Shown here: positions 8,112 through 58,984 of the stretch, piece by piece
Numbering within the stretch: position 1 is the first letter of the stretch
Layout of the letters: each line of letters opens with the position of its first letter
From: Salvelinus alpinus
Taxonomy: Eukaryota; Chordata; Actinopteri; Salmoniformes; Salmonidae
Assembly (NCBI RefSeq): GCF_045679555.1
Contig: NC_092115.1
Coordinates: 37,735,728 to 37,799,727, forward strand
Reading direction: 5' to 3'
Length of the DNA: 64,000 nucleotides
Program-made: the position numbers and the translations under genes
Notes under the pieces: model-generated
Seen by the model: only the letters and a program-made list of their open reading frames with translations
Databases searched by the model: none
Told to the model about the DNA's origin: nothing

Positions 8112-8289
8112 GACCTGTCCACGCTGCAGTGTGAGGTGGTTGTCCTGGTGTTCTCTGTGACAGACAGGAGAAGTTTCCACCGCACCGCCCAGCTCCGCCT
8201 CATCCTCAGGGAGTCGCTGCCCCACACTCCCATCATCCTCGTGGGCAACAAGAGTGACCTCGTCCGCTCTCGGGAGATCAGCACAGAGG
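8112..8289 (+). CDS. rem2: RGK-family small GTPase (rem2-like), penultimate exon
   Basis: RGK GTPases (Rem, Rem2, Rad, Gem) are membrane-associated GTP-binding proteins that bind voltage-gated calcium channel beta subunits and dampen channel activity. This exon begins after a TTTGTAG acceptor and ends before GTAGGG, leaving codon phase 1. It codes for the core of the G domain: the beta strand VVVLVFSVTDRRSF, then PIILVGNKSDLVRSREIS. NKSD is the G4 guanine-specificity motif, and SVTDRRSF and NKSDLVRSREIS are typical RGK wording. The last base joins to AG of the exon at 12045 to make a Glu codon, so the two exons read in frame. The P-loop (G1) exon is not in the window. The family call is firm; the rem2 paralogue call rests on the C-terminus. 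Confidence 0.85.
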
Positions 8290-8815
8290 GTAGGGAGGAC
8301 GCCCTCGTTATACTGTAAAACACCCTCCGTTGTCACTCGGGCGCCCAGAGTGTTTTATAATGTACCTCCTATCAATCTACTGGTCTCTCCTTTCCACCTT
8401 GAACCACCATTCTCATGGGGATCTTGTACAATGCATAGAGATGCAGTATTGCATAAAAATGGATGCAGTACATACTTAGTCGATGCAATGAACACGCCCC
8501 CCTCCCCCACCCTTTCCCAACCATTTTCATTTTAAAACCGGCAGTGCCTCGTAACACTCAGCACAGCATGGCTCCCTCGCTTTCCTATGAATATTGGTTT
8601 CTGCTTTCTACCCTTTTCCTCTGTCTGTCTTGCCTCTGTATTATGCCATTTGTCACCTATAACTGTGTTTCCATTTGAGAGCCAGAGCCAGTTTATCTGT
8701 GATCACCAAAAATCAATTCCTGGCTGCTGTGAGGAGCATTATGGGAAGATAAATGTTTTCCATTGCAATCTCCTTGTGGGAGAAAAATTGACCCATGGTT
8801 TTTTATTTTTTTTAT

Positions 8816-10091: not shown

Positions 10092-10849
10092 TCGCACTTA
10101 AAAGTACCAGCCGGCAACCACATTCTCACACCTCTCCCTACTCTCTGGGTGGTGTGGGTGACACTGCTTGTGCTGTCTGGAAAGCTGTGATGAGGGGGAT
10201 GAACCGGGAGGAGAAATGCCTGGGATGTCCATGCTACAAGGGCTGGTGCAGGAGTATGTGAATAAAAGTGATTGAGTGGGGATGGTTGTGTGTGTGGGTG
10301 TGAGACCTATTGTTTTGGGTGAAATCTTTTTTTAAATTTCAGTATAGGTTGTCTAGCCCACCATAAGACGTGGAAGGGTGTCTGTTGTGCATGAACTCAT
10401 GCTCAGTCATGGGTTCAGCCTGCAGTCAGCGAGATCGACAGAGATAAATAGAGAGAGAGAGAGGGGAAATGAGAGAGGAGGGTTGTTCTTAGGATACTGC
10501 TCCTTACCCATGTACTCAGCATATTCCCCATCTGAGAGAACTGCAATAGTAAAAATGCTACATCTCTCTTACCCTTGCATTCTGACAGGCCTTTGGTATC
10601 CATCTATCTATGGTATTCTGAGTCCTGACTCCCTGGCTGATATTTAAGCATGAGTAAGGAAGTGAACTTGCCTGGCTGGTGGACAACTCATCATTCATAT
10701 TCTGCTTGCGGTTGAGATTGGTGCCGGTCATAAAATGTATTGATGGAATCACGGTGACGTTTCTTTCTCTCTCCTGTCACAGTACACAGTATGTTATTCA
10801 TTCATTTTCCAAGTGAGGGTGAAGCCGTACCGTCTTTGATTACACATTA

Positions 10850-11086
10850 TGTAACAGTATAACTTTACGGCGTCCCCTCGCCCCGACACGGGCGCGAACC
10901 AGGGACCCTCTGCACACATCAACAACAGTCGCCCACAAAGCGTCGTTACCCATCGCTCCACAAAAGCCGCGGCCCTTGCAGAGCAAGGTGCAACACTACT
11001 TCTAGGTTTCAGAGCAAGTGACGTAACTGATTGAAACGCTAGTAGCGCGTACCCGCTAACTAGCTAGCCATTTCACATCCGTTACA
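10850..11086 (-). repeat. 3' LTR of the TRIM
   Basis: Bounded by TG and CA with short inverted ends TGTAAC/GTTACA. Lies downstream of the polypurine tract in element orientation. Confidence 0.85.
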
Positions 11087-11117
11087 CTCACCCCCCTTTC
11101 AACCTCCTCCTTTTCCG
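11087..11117 (-). promoter_or_regulatory. polypurine tract of the TRIM
   Basis: On the - strand a purine-rich run (AAAAGGAGGAGGTTGAAAGG then GGGGTGAG) abuts the LTR at 11086. This is the usual position for the plus-strand primer of an LTR element. Confidence 0.75.
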
Positions 11118-11129
11118 CAGCAACCAGTG

Positions 11130-11148
11130 ATCCGGGTCACGGCACCAA
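11130..11148 (-). promoter_or_regulatory. primer-binding site of the TRIM
   Basis: TTGGTGCCGTGACCCGGAT lies immediately after the 5' LTR on the - strand. TGG-initiated 18-mers at this place pair with tRNA 3' ends; the wording is close to the tRNA-His site used by some vertebrate class I elements, with one C for T that I can notice. Confidence 0.75.
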
Positions 11149-11385
11149 TGTAACAGTATAACTTTACGGCGTCCCCTCGCCCCGACACGGGCGCGAACCA
11201 GGGACCCTCTGCACACATCAACAACAGTCGCCCACAAAGCGTCGTTACCCATCGCTCCACAAAAGCCGCGGCCCTTGCAGAGCAAGGTGCAACACTACTT
11301 CTAGGTTTCAGAGCAAGTGACGTAACTGATTGAAACGCTAGTAGCGCGTACCCGCTAACTAGCTAGCCATTTCACATCCGTTACA
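11149..11385 (-). repeat. 5' LTR of the TRIM
   Basis: Same 237 bp as 10850-11086 with no difference that I can see. On the - strand it contains GGTTCGCGCCC, a near match to a Pol III B box. Confidence 0.85.
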
Positions 11386-12044
11386 ATTACACATTGACTG
11401 ATGACAACCTCGTCTCCAAAACAGAACATTTTCAGGAAATGTAACCTCAGAAGCTATTGTAAATACATGTTATTGGTCAATAAATGTCAAACAAAAAAAG
11501 AAAATTGGCAAAAAAATGGAGTTACGAGGTTGTCATCATACTGTGTGCTGTTTAGTCTGTATTCTCTCCCTCCTTTGAGTGCAGGGACAATCTTTTCCTC
11601 TCGCGCTCTCCTCCACCCCCCTCTCTCCCGCTTTGTCGCTGCACCTCTCTCCCCCTCTCTCGCTCACCTTACCTTGTAGCATCCCTGCTCTGGGAGTCTG
11701 CTGTTGGAGTGCTGTGAGGGACACAGAAGCCCTGCTGAGTCATAGAGAACAGTGGCCAACCCTCACATCTCCTCCTCCACGCCAGCCAGCCACTGCCACC
11801 GCTACACTATGTTCTCATGTTGCTCTCATCTCATTGTGGCTCATCCCTGCCTCAGCTCAGCTCCAATTCAATGTTATTTTCATTTCACTCTTATCAGGTT
11901 GAGACTCCATTCAATCAGTTATATGTAGTAGATATTAGGATAAGCCCAGCTGATCTGATCAGATTTGTTCCTTTCCACTAAACATGACTTATCATGGTAT
12001 CTCTATTCTCTACATCCCCACCCCTCTATCTCTCCCTGTTCCAG
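11386..12044. other. intron end with pyrimidine-rich tract
   Basis: C/T-rich sequence at about 11560-11670. The 3' end carries the CTCTCCCTGTTCCAG acceptor of the next exon. No other feature was recognised. Confidence 0.5.
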
Positions 12045-12370
12045 AGGCCCACTCCAGTGCCATGATGTATGAATGCCAGTATCTGGAGCTGTCTGCCTCC
12101 CTGGACCATGGTACCACCGAGCTGCTGGAGGGAGCGGTGAGGGCTGCCAGGGGAGACTGCGTTGGGCCGGGCTGGACGGAGGGGGACCCTGGGGCGGGGC
12201 GCAGGGAGAGTCTGACCAGCAAGGCCAAGCGCTTCCTGGCTGGCCTGGTGCCGCGGTCCTACGGCCGAGGAGACCGGGACAGGGGTCAGTACAGAGTGAT
12301 GAGCAGACACCGGGGCAGCAAGATCCTCCGACAGAAATCACGCTCCTGCCATGACCTCAGTGCAATGTGA
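12045..12370 (+). CDS. rem2: RGK-family small GTPase (rem2-like), last exon
   Basis: The exon follows CCCTGTTCCAG; its first two bases complete the Glu codon begun at 8289. It codes for the last part of the G domain (CQYLELSASLDHGTTELLEG; LSAS stands at the G5 position where relatives usually have ETSA) and then the RGK-specific tail. The tail has RRESLTSKAKRFLAGLVPRS, closest to the wording of Rem2, a 25-residue stretch rich in Arg/Gly/Asp, and the terminal KSRSCHDLSAM before TGA. SCHDL plus two hydrophobic residues is the RGK hallmark; the usual ending is VL, here AM. The basic tail is the known membrane phospholipid and calmodulin binding part in this family. The linker CVGPGWTEGDPGAG is unusual. 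Gem, Rad or a fish-specific paralogue remain possible. Confidence 0.88.
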
Positions 12371-18880: not shown

Positions 18881-19719
18881 CCCAGTTCCAGTTGCAATAC
18901 CATTATGACAGGTGCTTCCAGTTGGAATACCATTATGACAGGTGCTTCCAGTTGCAATACCATTATGACAGGTGCTTCCAGTTGGAATACCATTATGACA
19001 GGTGCTTCCAGTTGCAATACCATTATGACAGGTGCTTCCAGTTGCAATACCATTATGACAGGTGCTTCCAGTTGCAATACCATTATGACAGGTGCTTCCA
19101 GTTGCAATACCATTATGACAGGTGCTTCCAGTTGCAATACCATTATGACAGGTGCTTCCAGTTGCAATACCATTATGACAGGTGCTTCAAGTTGCAATAC
19201 CATTATGACAGGTGCTTCCAGTTGCAATACCATTATGACAGGTGCTTCCAGTTGCAATACCATTATGACAGGTGCTTCAAGTTGCAATACCATTATGACA
19301 GGTGCTTCAAGTTGCAATACCATTATGACAGGTGCTTCCAGTTGCAATACCATTATGACAGGTGCTTCCAGTTGCAATACCATTATGACAGGTGCTTCCA
19401 GTTGCAATACCATTATGACAGGTGCTTCCAGTTGCAATACCATTATGACAGGTGCTTCCAGTTGCAATACCATTATGACAGGTGCTTCCAGTTGCAATAC
19501 CATTATGACAGGTGCTTCCAGTTGCAATACCATTATGACAGGTGCTTCCAGTTGCAATACCATTATGACAGGTGCTTCAAGTTGCAATACCATTATGACA
19601 GGTGCTTCCAGTTGCAATACCATTATGACAGGTGCTTCCAGTTGCAATACCATTATGACAGGTGCTTCAAGTTGCAATACCATTATGACAGGTGCTTCAA
19701 GTTGCAATACCATTATGAC
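18881..19719. repeat. 30-bp minisatellite, about 28 units, with higher-order duplication
   Basis: The unit is CATTATGACAGGTGCTTCCA plus GTTGCAATAC. Counting from 18901, units 1 and 3 carry GTTGGAATAC. Units 10, 13, 14, 23, 26 and 27 carry TTCAA instead of TTCCA. The second set of three equals the first shifted by 13 units (390 bp), which points to a block duplication within the array. Because 30 is a multiple of three, several long frames stay open on both strands; these are artefacts. Confidence 0.97.
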
Positions 19720-55220: not shown

Positions 55221-56162
55221 GTGGAGCGCACGGTGTCCCCAGTACGCGTGCTTAGTCCAGTGCGGGCTATTCCACCTCGCCGCACTGGTCGGGCTAGGTT
55301 GGGCATCGAGCCGGGTGCCATGAAGCCGGCCCAATGCATCTGGTCTCCAGTGCGTCTCCTCGGGCCGGCGTACATGGCACCAGCCTTACAAATGGTGTCC
55401 CCGGTTCGCCAGCATAGCCCAGTGCGGGCTATTCCACCTCGCCACACTGGCAGGGCTACGGGGACCATTCAACCAGGTAAGGTTGGGCAGGCTCGGTGCT
55501 CAAGAGCTCGTGTTCTCCTTCACGGTCCGGTATATCCGGTGCCACCTCCACGTACCAGTCCTCCGGTGGCAGCCCCCCGCACCAGGCTGTCTCTCCGTCT
55601 TCTCTCTCCAGTTGCTCCCACCTGTCCAGCGCTGTCAGAGCCTTCCTCCTCTCCAGCGCAGCCAGAGTCTGAGCTGCCTGCCTGCCCAGAGCCATCAGCC
55701 AGCCATGACCAGCCAGAGCCGTCAGCCAGCCATGACCAGCCAGAGCCGTCAGCCAGCCATGACCAGCCAGAGCCGTCAGCCAGCCATGACCAGCCAGAGC
55801 CGTCAGCCAGCCATGACCAGCCAGAGCCGTCAGTCAGCCATGACCAGCCAGAGCCATCAGCCAGCCAGGAGCTGCCAGAGCCGCCAGCCAGCCAGGATCT
55901 GCCAGAGCCGCCCGCCAGCCAGGATCTGCCAGAGCCGCCAGTCAGCCAGGATCTGCCAGAGCCGCCCGCCAGCCAGGATCTGCCCCTCAGTCCGGTGCTA
56001 CCCCTTGGTTCAGTGGGGTTGATATGGAGGGTGGTTGTGGTTAGGAGGCCACGGGGGCGATTAAGGAGGCGGGAAAAAACATTGTTTACGTGTGGTCCAC
56101 GTCCCGCGCCAGAGCCGCCACCGCGGACAGACGCCCACCCAGACCCTCCCCTAGAGTTTTAG
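55221..56162 (+). CDS. LTR-element ORF 2, Pro-rich repetitive protein
   Basis: A 313-codon frame. The first half repeats SPVRAIPPRRTGRA-like phrases (two copies, near codons 15 and 70). The second half is a run of nine-residue units: PEPSASHDQ about six times, then PEPPASQDL about five times. The rest is rich in Pro, Ser and Arg. No transmembrane segment or enzyme motif is seen. It may be the 3' part of the frame beginning at 54811, separated by a length change in the G tract. Whether it is translated cannot be told from sequence. Confidence 0.5.
   Translation: MERTVSPVRVLSPVRAIPPRRTGRARLGIEPGAMKPAQCIWSPVRLLGPAYMAPALQMVSPVRQHSPVRAIPPRHTGRATGTIQPGKVGQARCSRARVLLHGPVYPVPPPRTSPPVAAPRTRLSLRLLSPVAPTCPALSEPSSSPAQPESELPACPEPSASHDQPEPSASHDQPEPSASHDQPEPSASHDQPEPSASHDQPEPSVSHDQPEPSASQELPEPPASQDLPEPPASQDLPEPPVSQDLPEPPASQDLPLSPVLPLGSVGLIWRVVVVRRPRGRLRRREKTLFTCGPRPAPEPPPRTDAHPDPPLEF
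55695..55990 (+). repeat. 27-bp coding minisatellite in the LTR element
   Basis: About eleven 27-bp units in two subtypes: CAGCCATGACCAGCCAGAGC plus CGTCAGC, then CAGCCAGGATCTGCCAGAGC plus CGCC. The 27-bp period preserves the frame. Confidence 0.9.
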
Positions 56163-58151: not shown

Positions 58152-58342
58152 ACTTGGGCTCAATTCGAATTGAAGTCAGTATATTCAGGAAGTGATTTGA
58201 ACTTAACATTCAGAAATGGTAAAACTTTTGAAATAAATAGATTTTACTTTTCAGTTTATTGAGAAGTCATTGAAAATAAATGCCCTTTTTTAATTATTGA
58301 ATTGTCATTTTTGTTTTATTCAAATTGAGCCCAACTCTTGCC
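58152..58342. mobile_element. MITE whose right end continues into the minisatellite
   Basis: GACTTGGGCTCAATTCGAAT at the left and, reverse complemented, GAGTTGGGCTCAATTTGAAT at the right form inverted ends around an AT-rich interior. The right end is the start of the first 66-bp minisatellite unit. Confidence 0.7.
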
Positions 58343-58984
58343 TCTACATACATCTTCTCTTATAAGCATCCGGGTTAGAGTGATAGAGAATTGAGCCCAA
58401 CCCTGGCCTCTACATACATCTTCTCTTATAAGCATCCGGGTTAGAGTGATAGAGAATTGAGCCCAACCCTGGCCTCTACATACATCTTCTCTTATAAGCA
58501 TCCGGGGTTAGAGTGATAGAGAATTGAGCCCAACCCTGGCCTCTACATACATCTTCTCTTATAAGCATCCAGGTTAGAGTGATAGAGAATTGAGCCCAAC
58601 CCTGGCCTCTACATACATCTTCTCTTATAAGCATCCGGGTTAGAGTGATAGAGAATTGAGCCCAACCCTGGCCTCTACATACATCTTCTCTTATAAGCAT
58701 CCGGGTTAGAGTGATAGAGAATTGAGCCCAACCCTGGCCTCTACATACATCTTCTCTTATAAGCATCCGGGTTAGAGTGATAGAGAATTGAGCCCAACCC
58801 TGGCCTCTACATACATCTTCTCTTATAAGCATCCGGGTTAGATGATAGAGAATTGAGCCCAACCCTGGCCTCTACATACATCTTCTCTTATAAGCATCCG
58901 GGTTAGAGTGATAGAGAATTGAGCCCAACCCTGGCCTCTACATACATCTACTCTTATAAGCATCCGGGTTAGAGTGATAGAGAT
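58327..58984. repeat. 66-bp minisatellite, about 10 units
   Basis: Units begin GAGCCCAACCCTGGCCTCTA at 58327, 58393, 58459, 58526, 58592, 58658, 58724, 58790, 58855 and 58921. One unit is 67 and one is 65 bases. The first unit differs (CCAACTCTTGCC). As 66 is a multiple of three, a 22-residue repeat appears on the - strand; I regard that as an artefact. Confidence 0.95.

Follow-up and report, generated by a model that had tools for sequence, protein, structure and literature searches.

The element and its setting

The window analysed here, a 64-kb stretch of DNA, holds a complete non-autonomous LTR retrotransposon of 536 bp (237 + 62 + 237) in an intron of an RGK GTPase gene, with the element on the minus strand and the gene, to which it is antisense, on the plus strand. 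Table 1 presents the coordinates of the element, its parts and the neighbouring exons. An earlier note on this DNA had described two identical 237-bp TG...CA repeats separated by a 62-bp spacer and flanked by ATTA. Self-comparison of the window bears this out, as 238 bases are identical at an offset of exactly 299 bp (10849-11086 and 11148-11385). Read along the minus strand, the order is LTR, a single T, TGGTGCCGTGACCCGGAT, a 13-nt linker, the purine-rich tract and the second LTR. The spacer does contain the primer-binding site (PBS) and polypurine tract ascribed to it, the former by identity to tRNA-His and the latter by its letters. The layout is far beyond chance, since LTR-62/63-LTR recurs across the genome and reversed-pattern controls gave zero. 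Within the 64-kb window, BLAST with the LTR found no further copies.

Table 1. Features of the element and its host gene, in window positions
Feature	Position	Strand	Basis
Exon stretch of the RGK GTPase gene, upstream of the element-bearing intron	8115-8315	+	Structure matches, Pfam Ras
Target-site duplication, left copy (ATTA)	10846-10849		Sequence
3' LTR, 237 bp, TG...CA ends, identical to the 5' LTR	10850-11086	-	Offset identity, siblings
B-box-like GGTTCGCGCCC, 3' LTR	10890-10900	-	Sequence
A-box stretch, 3' LTR	10944-10961	-	15/18 letters as in the tRNA-Arg 5' part
Purine-rich tract GGAAAAGGAGGAGGTTGAAAGGGGGGTGAG, 30 nt, preceding the 3' LTR	11087-11116	-	Read from sequence
Entire internal region, 62 bp	11087-11148	-	Offset identity, siblings
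PBS, complement of the 3' 18 nt of tRNA-His(GTG) with CCA added	11130-11147	-	Two ARAGORN-read genes
5' LTR in the element's own orientation, 237 bp, TG...CA ends	11149-11385	-	Offset identity, siblings
B-box-like GGTTCGCGCCC, second copy, 5' LTR	11189-11199	-	Sequence
A-box stretch, second copy, 5' LTR	11243-11260	-	Same letters
Target-site duplication, right copy (ATTA)	11386-11389		Sequence
Stretch with the last coding exon of the RGK GTPase gene	12050-12370	+	REM1 best match, weak

The intronic context, also proposed in the earlier note, is confirmed by the exon matches. The upstream exon finds its best structure matches in REM2, RAD, GEM and REM1, while the translation of the last coding exon, which ends in KSRSCHDLSAM, matches REM1 best though weakly (E 0.0016), and no Pfam family was matched in that stretch. 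Similarity of the flanks extends beyond 4 bp, with ATTACACATT on either side of the element; because sibling copies have 4-bp duplications, we favour a local 7-bp repeat as its explanation. When the joined flanks were searched against the genome, the window itself and partial or short matches were recovered with no empty site. The partial match, on C23, is 76% identical over 156 bases and stops short of the insertion point, and the remaining ones are short repeat matches. Inverted arms surround the insertion at 11390-11547 (24 nt, 83%) and 10779-11551 (15 nt, 93%), and the right flank has a dispersed-repeat match beginning about 5 bp from the duplication. Given these arms and this match, the element sits at the edge of a possible MITE. 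Elsewhere in the window lie three tandem repeats: 27.8 copies of a 30-bp unit at 18886-19719 (98% matches), with several reading frames open through it; 10 copies of a 66-bp unit at 58323-58983 (98%); and 10.7 copies of a 27-bp unit at 55686-55975 (94%).

A dispersed family

The 2.37-Gb genome contains 4133 exact LTR 3' ends of 18 letters, of which 1393 are directly followed by TTGRTGC, the start of the PBS; the reversed controls gave zero for both patterns. Since about one third of the LTR ends meet a PBS, against about half if every copy had two LTRs, solo or decayed LTRs are probably common in the family, as judged from these end counts. Three exact family patterns had no matches in viral contigs, and one such pattern had none in bacterial and archaeal genomes.

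Two samples describe the layout of the copies. The first, obtained by scoring the best 40 of 2038 candidates from a search by similarity to the window copy, comprises 32 loci with exact 4-bp duplications, one with TATATA and seven with none. The second is systematic and consists of the first 40 exact junctions listed for the perfect-PBS class only, a class defined in the next section. It contains 28 simple elements with two full LTRs, four tandem arrays, one locus at which an additional LTR lies 310 bp off, and seven partial copies. Each of the four arrays has two internal regions and a single outer 4-bp duplication. Both outer ends are present at 35 loci of this sample, including L095, where there is a single LTR and part of a PBS, and 30 of them have a 4-bp duplication, one has TATATA and four have none. 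Across all distinct sampled loci with both outer ends, the counts are 60 of 72 with an exact 4-bp duplication, two with TATATA and ten with none, once L047-L054 (the same as L087-L094) and L104, L119 and L121 (the same as L031, L026 and L020) are left out.

The preferred target is symmetric. In 62 duplicated loci, the first duplicated base is C or T in 56 and the fourth is A or G in 57; two bases out from the duplication, T stands on the left in 39 and A on the right in 39. Within the LTR, a hypervariable spot lies at positions 217-219 (window 10868-10870), just before the conserved end; the mean majority frequency is 0.63 at positions 217-220 (minimum 0.48) and averages 0.99 over the next 17. 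At one locus (L100), each of the two LTRs (651-906 and 969-1224 in element orientation) aligns as two pieces that repeat LTR positions 13-33, and this apparently shared short duplication suggests that both were copied from one template.

Two states of the primer-binding site

The PBS of the window copy is the exact complement of the 3' end of tRNA-His(GTG), with CCA, for 18 nt and no further. The reference was taken from two genes of this genome as read by ARAGORN. The tRNA-His genes were sought by pattern, and a 21-letter 3'-end pattern occurs at 18 exact places and at three more with one mismatch; a tRNA family search of the genome gave only one array, of tRNA-Cys with some tRNA-Phe. That array, at C7:42554611-42664967 (L057-L086), has tRNA-Cys genes in tandem at spacings of about 748 bp or multiples of it, and in the output examined some of its units are read by ARAGORN as tRNA-Phe(GAA).

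The earlier note had rightly reported a PBS; its tRNA-His identity and the existence of two states are additions made here. Besides the perfect form, a mismatched variant, TTGATGCTGTTGACC, is found at junctions, and its internal region is usually 63 nt long. At up to two mismatches, 1820 junctions carry the variant and 477 the perfect PBS (reversed controls zero), which places the perfect class at 21% of the two taken together; among the first 100 places listed for the 1393 junctions of LTR end and TTGRTGC, 12 have the perfect PBS. The variant does not contain TGG, the part that pairs with CCA. It is still predicted to pair with tRNA-His, the only primer with which it was compared, at -26.6 kcal/mol against -39.3 kcal/mol for the perfect form. 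Among the first 100 places listed for the variant class, 13 fall into six clusters at spacings of 296-302 bp.

Tandem arrays

Arrays were collected with a variant-variant and a perfect-perfect query, neither of which is nearer to one mixed order than to the other, and the best 40 of 1213 and best 40 of 2397 candidates were scored, with L154 replaced by the longer L182. With those of the earlier samples, the 65 arrays have up to four internal regions; 46 are uniform (42 variant, four perfect) and 19 are mixed. Sixteen of the mixed arrays begin with a perfect and end with a variant PBS, two show the reverse (L172 and L174) and one is VHV (sign test p = 0.0013). The count of 16 to 2 rests on 18 arrays, five of which (L010, L097, L106, L108 and L123, all perfect-first) came from the earlier samples and were the source of the idea that was then tested. 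With these five set aside, 11 arrays are perfect-first and two reverse, for a two-sided sign test of about 0.02; by query, the new arrays divide 4 to 0 (variant-variant) and 7 to 2 (perfect-perfect). An LTR match lies upstream of the first internal region in all 11 new perfect-first arrays. Since neither L172 nor L174 has such a match, their 5' ends may be truncated.

It is possible, though on balance unlikely, that the arrays form only after insertion, through unequal crossing-over between LTRs. Such exchange within a single element would yield uniform arrays, whereas 19 of the 65 are mixed, and of the five mixed arrays with flanks read, four (L097, L106, L108 and L123) are bounded by a single outer 4-bp duplication, the fifth, L010, being cut short on the right. 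Over all 11 arrays with flanks read, six have an exact outer 4-bp duplication, one has TATATA and four have none (L010, L012, L036 and L045, with the flanks of L012 and L045 differing by one base). The LTRs themselves speak to both sides. The outer LTRs of a multi-unit cDNA share one template, which the middle LTR need not, and for this reason their similarity was compared: the outer pair is closest in four of five perfect-variant arrays and tied in the other, as fits an origin in multi-unit cDNAs, but in such a small sample, which includes the right-truncated L010, this is suggestive only. In four variant-variant arrays the outer pair is never closest, and one array of five LTRs (L002) has four that are identical, both of which count in favour of crossing-over after insertion. 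Variant-variant arrays may arise by unequal exchange once the element is inserted, by analogy with what has been suggested for the plant element Wukong.

Primer-binding site and LTR lineage

Another way to account for the two PBS states is as two subfamilies with different primers that were later mixed by recombination, with no rewriting by tRNA. We consider this unlikely, in light, among other evidence, of an LTR tree of 58 simple elements (38 perfect, 20 variant), each of unambiguous PBS class and with its first LTR whole, duplicates having been removed; its variant elements come mainly from the sample picked by similarity to the window copy. The PBS state changes 16 times on this tree, where 20 is the most possible, and agreement between nearest neighbours is 0.598 against 0.540 +- 0.069 after shuffling (198 of 1000 shuffles as high). 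Two pairs of elements are alike in every compared column of the 5' LTR yet unlike in PBS. The PBS state thus does not detectably follow the LTR tree, and the polarity of the mixed arrays, at 16 to 2, likewise argues against separate subfamilies. Primer copying is known to stop at nt 18, at m1A58, and it is exactly there that the perfect match to tRNA-His ends. No other primer is known for the variant PBS, within a comparison that covered tRNA-His only.

In favour of two subfamilies, the variant is in the majority (1820 against 477) and without the TGG that pairs with CCA, which is difficult to maintain when every round copies the primer. LTR allele frequencies also differ between the PBS classes, by 0.37 at position 98, 0.28 at position 50 and 0.27 at position 96; the comparison is of 91 perfect and 66 variant LTRs from samples drawn differently, the variant one largely for its likeness to the window copy, and this sampling may or may not explain the difference.

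Age of the insertion

The two window LTRs differ at none of 237 sites, which allows a divergence of about 1.3%. The LTR pairs of 28 simple siblings show between 0 and 15 differences (median 3.5), and five of these pairs are identical. Set against this spread, the window copy is among the youngest of its family and not unique. The recent mobilisation proposed in the earlier note is accordingly plausible, but the case is weaker than stated, as identity is shared by 5 of 28 siblings and gene conversion is possible. Direct repeats that lie close together are well known to undergo conversion, which could have made the LTRs of an old insertion identical; both window LTRs also carry a T at position 150 that is absent from all 88 other LTRs compared, which conversion could produce as well. 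A single retrotransposition explains the identity equally, and the range among siblings, from identical pairs to 15 differences, is expected of activity over time. An old insertion disguised by conversion is therefore improbable.

Relation to known elements

The copies have the anatomy of a terminal-repeat retrotransposon in miniature (TRIM). Two TG...CA LTRs enclose a very short non-coding internal region, in the siblings as in the window copy, with a PBS beside the 5' LTR and a polypurine tract before the 3' LTR, and insertion duplicates a fixed length of its target (4 bp at 60 of 72 loci). This TRIM identity, already proposed in the earlier note, stands after the sampled loci were checked for a satellite. 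Tandem arrays of the 299-bp unit do occur (65 collected, one of them with five LTRs), but a satellite-like duplication can be dismissed, since exact 4-bp duplications at 60 of the 72 sampled loci, the predominance of simple elements in the systematic perfect-PBS sample (28 of 40, with only four arrays, of two internal regions, and 4-bp duplications at 30 of 35), the outer flanks of the 11 arrays and a PBS matching tRNA-His over exactly 18 nt all stand against it.

The LTR also contains tRNA-like letters. At LTR positions 126-143, 15 of 18 letters match a tRNA-Arg-like stretch, which we take to be the 5' part of tRNA-Arg. Two of 20,000 dinucleotide shuffles of the LTR were as good, a figure that comes from a single chosen tRNA and has to be corrected for some tens of tRNAs. 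GGTTCG, present in 153 of 164 LTRs, begins 61 nt after the start of this A-box stretch. The Rfam tRNA model gave no match to the LTR or the element even at E up to 10, and a scan of the LTR with plain A- and B-box consensus sequences did no better than shuffles (478 of 2000 as good). Judged from its letters, the A-box stretch is probably tRNA-derived but decayed. The TTTT beside the A box was considered as an RNA polymerase III terminator and rejected, being present in only 111 of 164 LTRs, with C at its first position in 50. In the genome at large, the tRNA-Arg-like pattern of 25 letters occurs at three exact places and at 29 with one or two mismatches. Sixteen one-mismatch matches to it lie at C2:13268891-13284251, mostly about 667 bp apart and in two opposed runs, 12 on the minus and four on the plus strand.

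Because its LTR holds a probably tRNA-derived A-box stretch together with GGTTCG, the window element is most likely a TRIM of the Helenus (TRIMp3) kind, a placement made by described features. As presented in the sections of Kojima 2024 (PMC10886601) on which we draw, Helenus elements have two short LTRs with a tRNA-derived stretch and a short internal region with PBS and polypurine tract. They leave 4-bp duplications in animals, and their vertebrate primers are tRNA-His, -Leu or -Lys. The family described here is alike in its LTRs, internal region and duplications and in tRNA-His as the primer matched by the window copy, and probably also in the tRNA-derived stretch. Transcription by RNA polymerase III is given there as unproven for Helenus, and animal Helenus elements are tied to Gypsy elements through PBS similarity (PMC10886601).

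The earlier note had held that TRIMs are seldom discussed in vertebrates. They are nonetheless described from fishes as Helenus (Kojima 2024, PMC10886601), and the tRNA-like stretch also went unmentioned in the note. In zebrafish, LTR-11_DR of the fish branch of Helenus comprises 5575 LTRs and 2618 internal regions and forms tandem arrays (PMC10886601). The host table of the same paper names coelacanth, sterlet, paddlefish, Cypriniformes, a catfish and milkfish, with no salmonid among them (PMC10886601). A literature search, with Repbase outside its scope, found neither a published salmonid TRIM nor a paper on the present family. The class is already known, fishes included, and a new family is not claimed. 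What is new here are the two PBS states and their order in arrays, of which no description was found for any TRIM in the literature searched, including those sections of Kojima 2024 (PMC10886601).

Plant TRIMs offer a partial parallel. As reported, Cassandra (PMC7215508) and Wukong (PMC4528315) are, like the present family, small non-coding LTR elements that form tandem arrays. Cassandra differs in its plant host and in having 5S in place of tRNA (PMC7215508). The arrays of Wukong, also from a plant, are ascribed, as a suggestion, to unequal crossing-over (PMC4528315), whereas the mixed arrays found here need another route.

The closest likeness to the two PBS states comes from mouse. In the portion of PMC7472051 considered here, the commonest PBS of the ETn, MusD and IAP elements mismatches its tRNA primer, and perfect and common forms are scattered across the tree, as they are in the present family. 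Unlike it, the mouse elements are endogenous retroviruses with other primers (PMC7472051); the present family is a TRIM, its evidence is positional and comes from tandem arrays, and its perfect form is the minority. The authors offer, as speculation, a 50:50 chance that a mouse element inherits the primer copy, and they propose that a mismatched PBS is an escape from tRNA fragments (PMC7472051). The same source contrasts Ty3, a Gypsy element that inherits its PBS strictly, with retroviruses, which copy the tRNA into one strand (PMC7472051). By analogy, the PBS pattern of the present family resembles the retroviral way.

Proposed rewriting of the primer-binding site

As a whole, the observations are best explained by a TRIM lying antisense in an RGK intron, whose family is copied from a tRNA-His primer, has its PBS rewritten from that primer and passes in part through multi-unit cDNAs; we give this reading a probability of roughly 0.8. 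According to it, a transcript of the element, made perhaps by RNA polymerase III, would be copied, with tRNA-His as primer, by proteins that an autonomous LTR element supplies, and the integrase of that element would insert the cDNA and give rise to the 4-bp duplications. During plus-strand synthesis, the 18-nt end of tRNA-His would be copied into the PBS, as the genomic copies suggest, and the outcome in a new copy would be one of two: a perfect tRNA-His PBS, like that of the window copy, or a mismatched PBS retained from the RNA template. The multi-unit arrays would stem, at least in part, from multi-unit cDNAs, whose 5'-most PBS alone meets the primer. Since only this PBS could receive a primer copy, a perfect-first order is expected, and the observed polarity agrees with the tRNA primer rewriting the PBS whenever the element jumps.

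Several observations count against this explanation, namely the negative Rfam tRNA search, the null result of the plain box scan, the differences in allele frequency and the two reversed arrays. In addition, the perfect class stands at 21% (12 of the 100 listed places), not at the 50% of simple heteroduplex resolution, and a repair bias or a difference in fitness must be added to the model. At even odds, the family is a natural record of reverse-transcription chemistry, in which the 5'-most PBS can be overwritten by tRNA-His while inner PBSs keep the letters of the template, and in which overwriting must be opposed because the mismatched PBS stays in the majority. Such opposition could come about if perfect-PBS copies were better silencing targets for 3' tRNA fragments, or if repair favoured the other strand.

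Implications

A large family, probably of the tRNA-box kind of TRIM, is added here from another vertebrate genome, with a copy number that is useful for statistics. If the polarity of the arrays holds throughout, counting across the genome could show that a PBS is rewritten from its tRNA at each jump, and how frequently, in a family without any coding sequence. If overwriting is indeed opposed, the many short and complete copies would make the contest between the two measurable.
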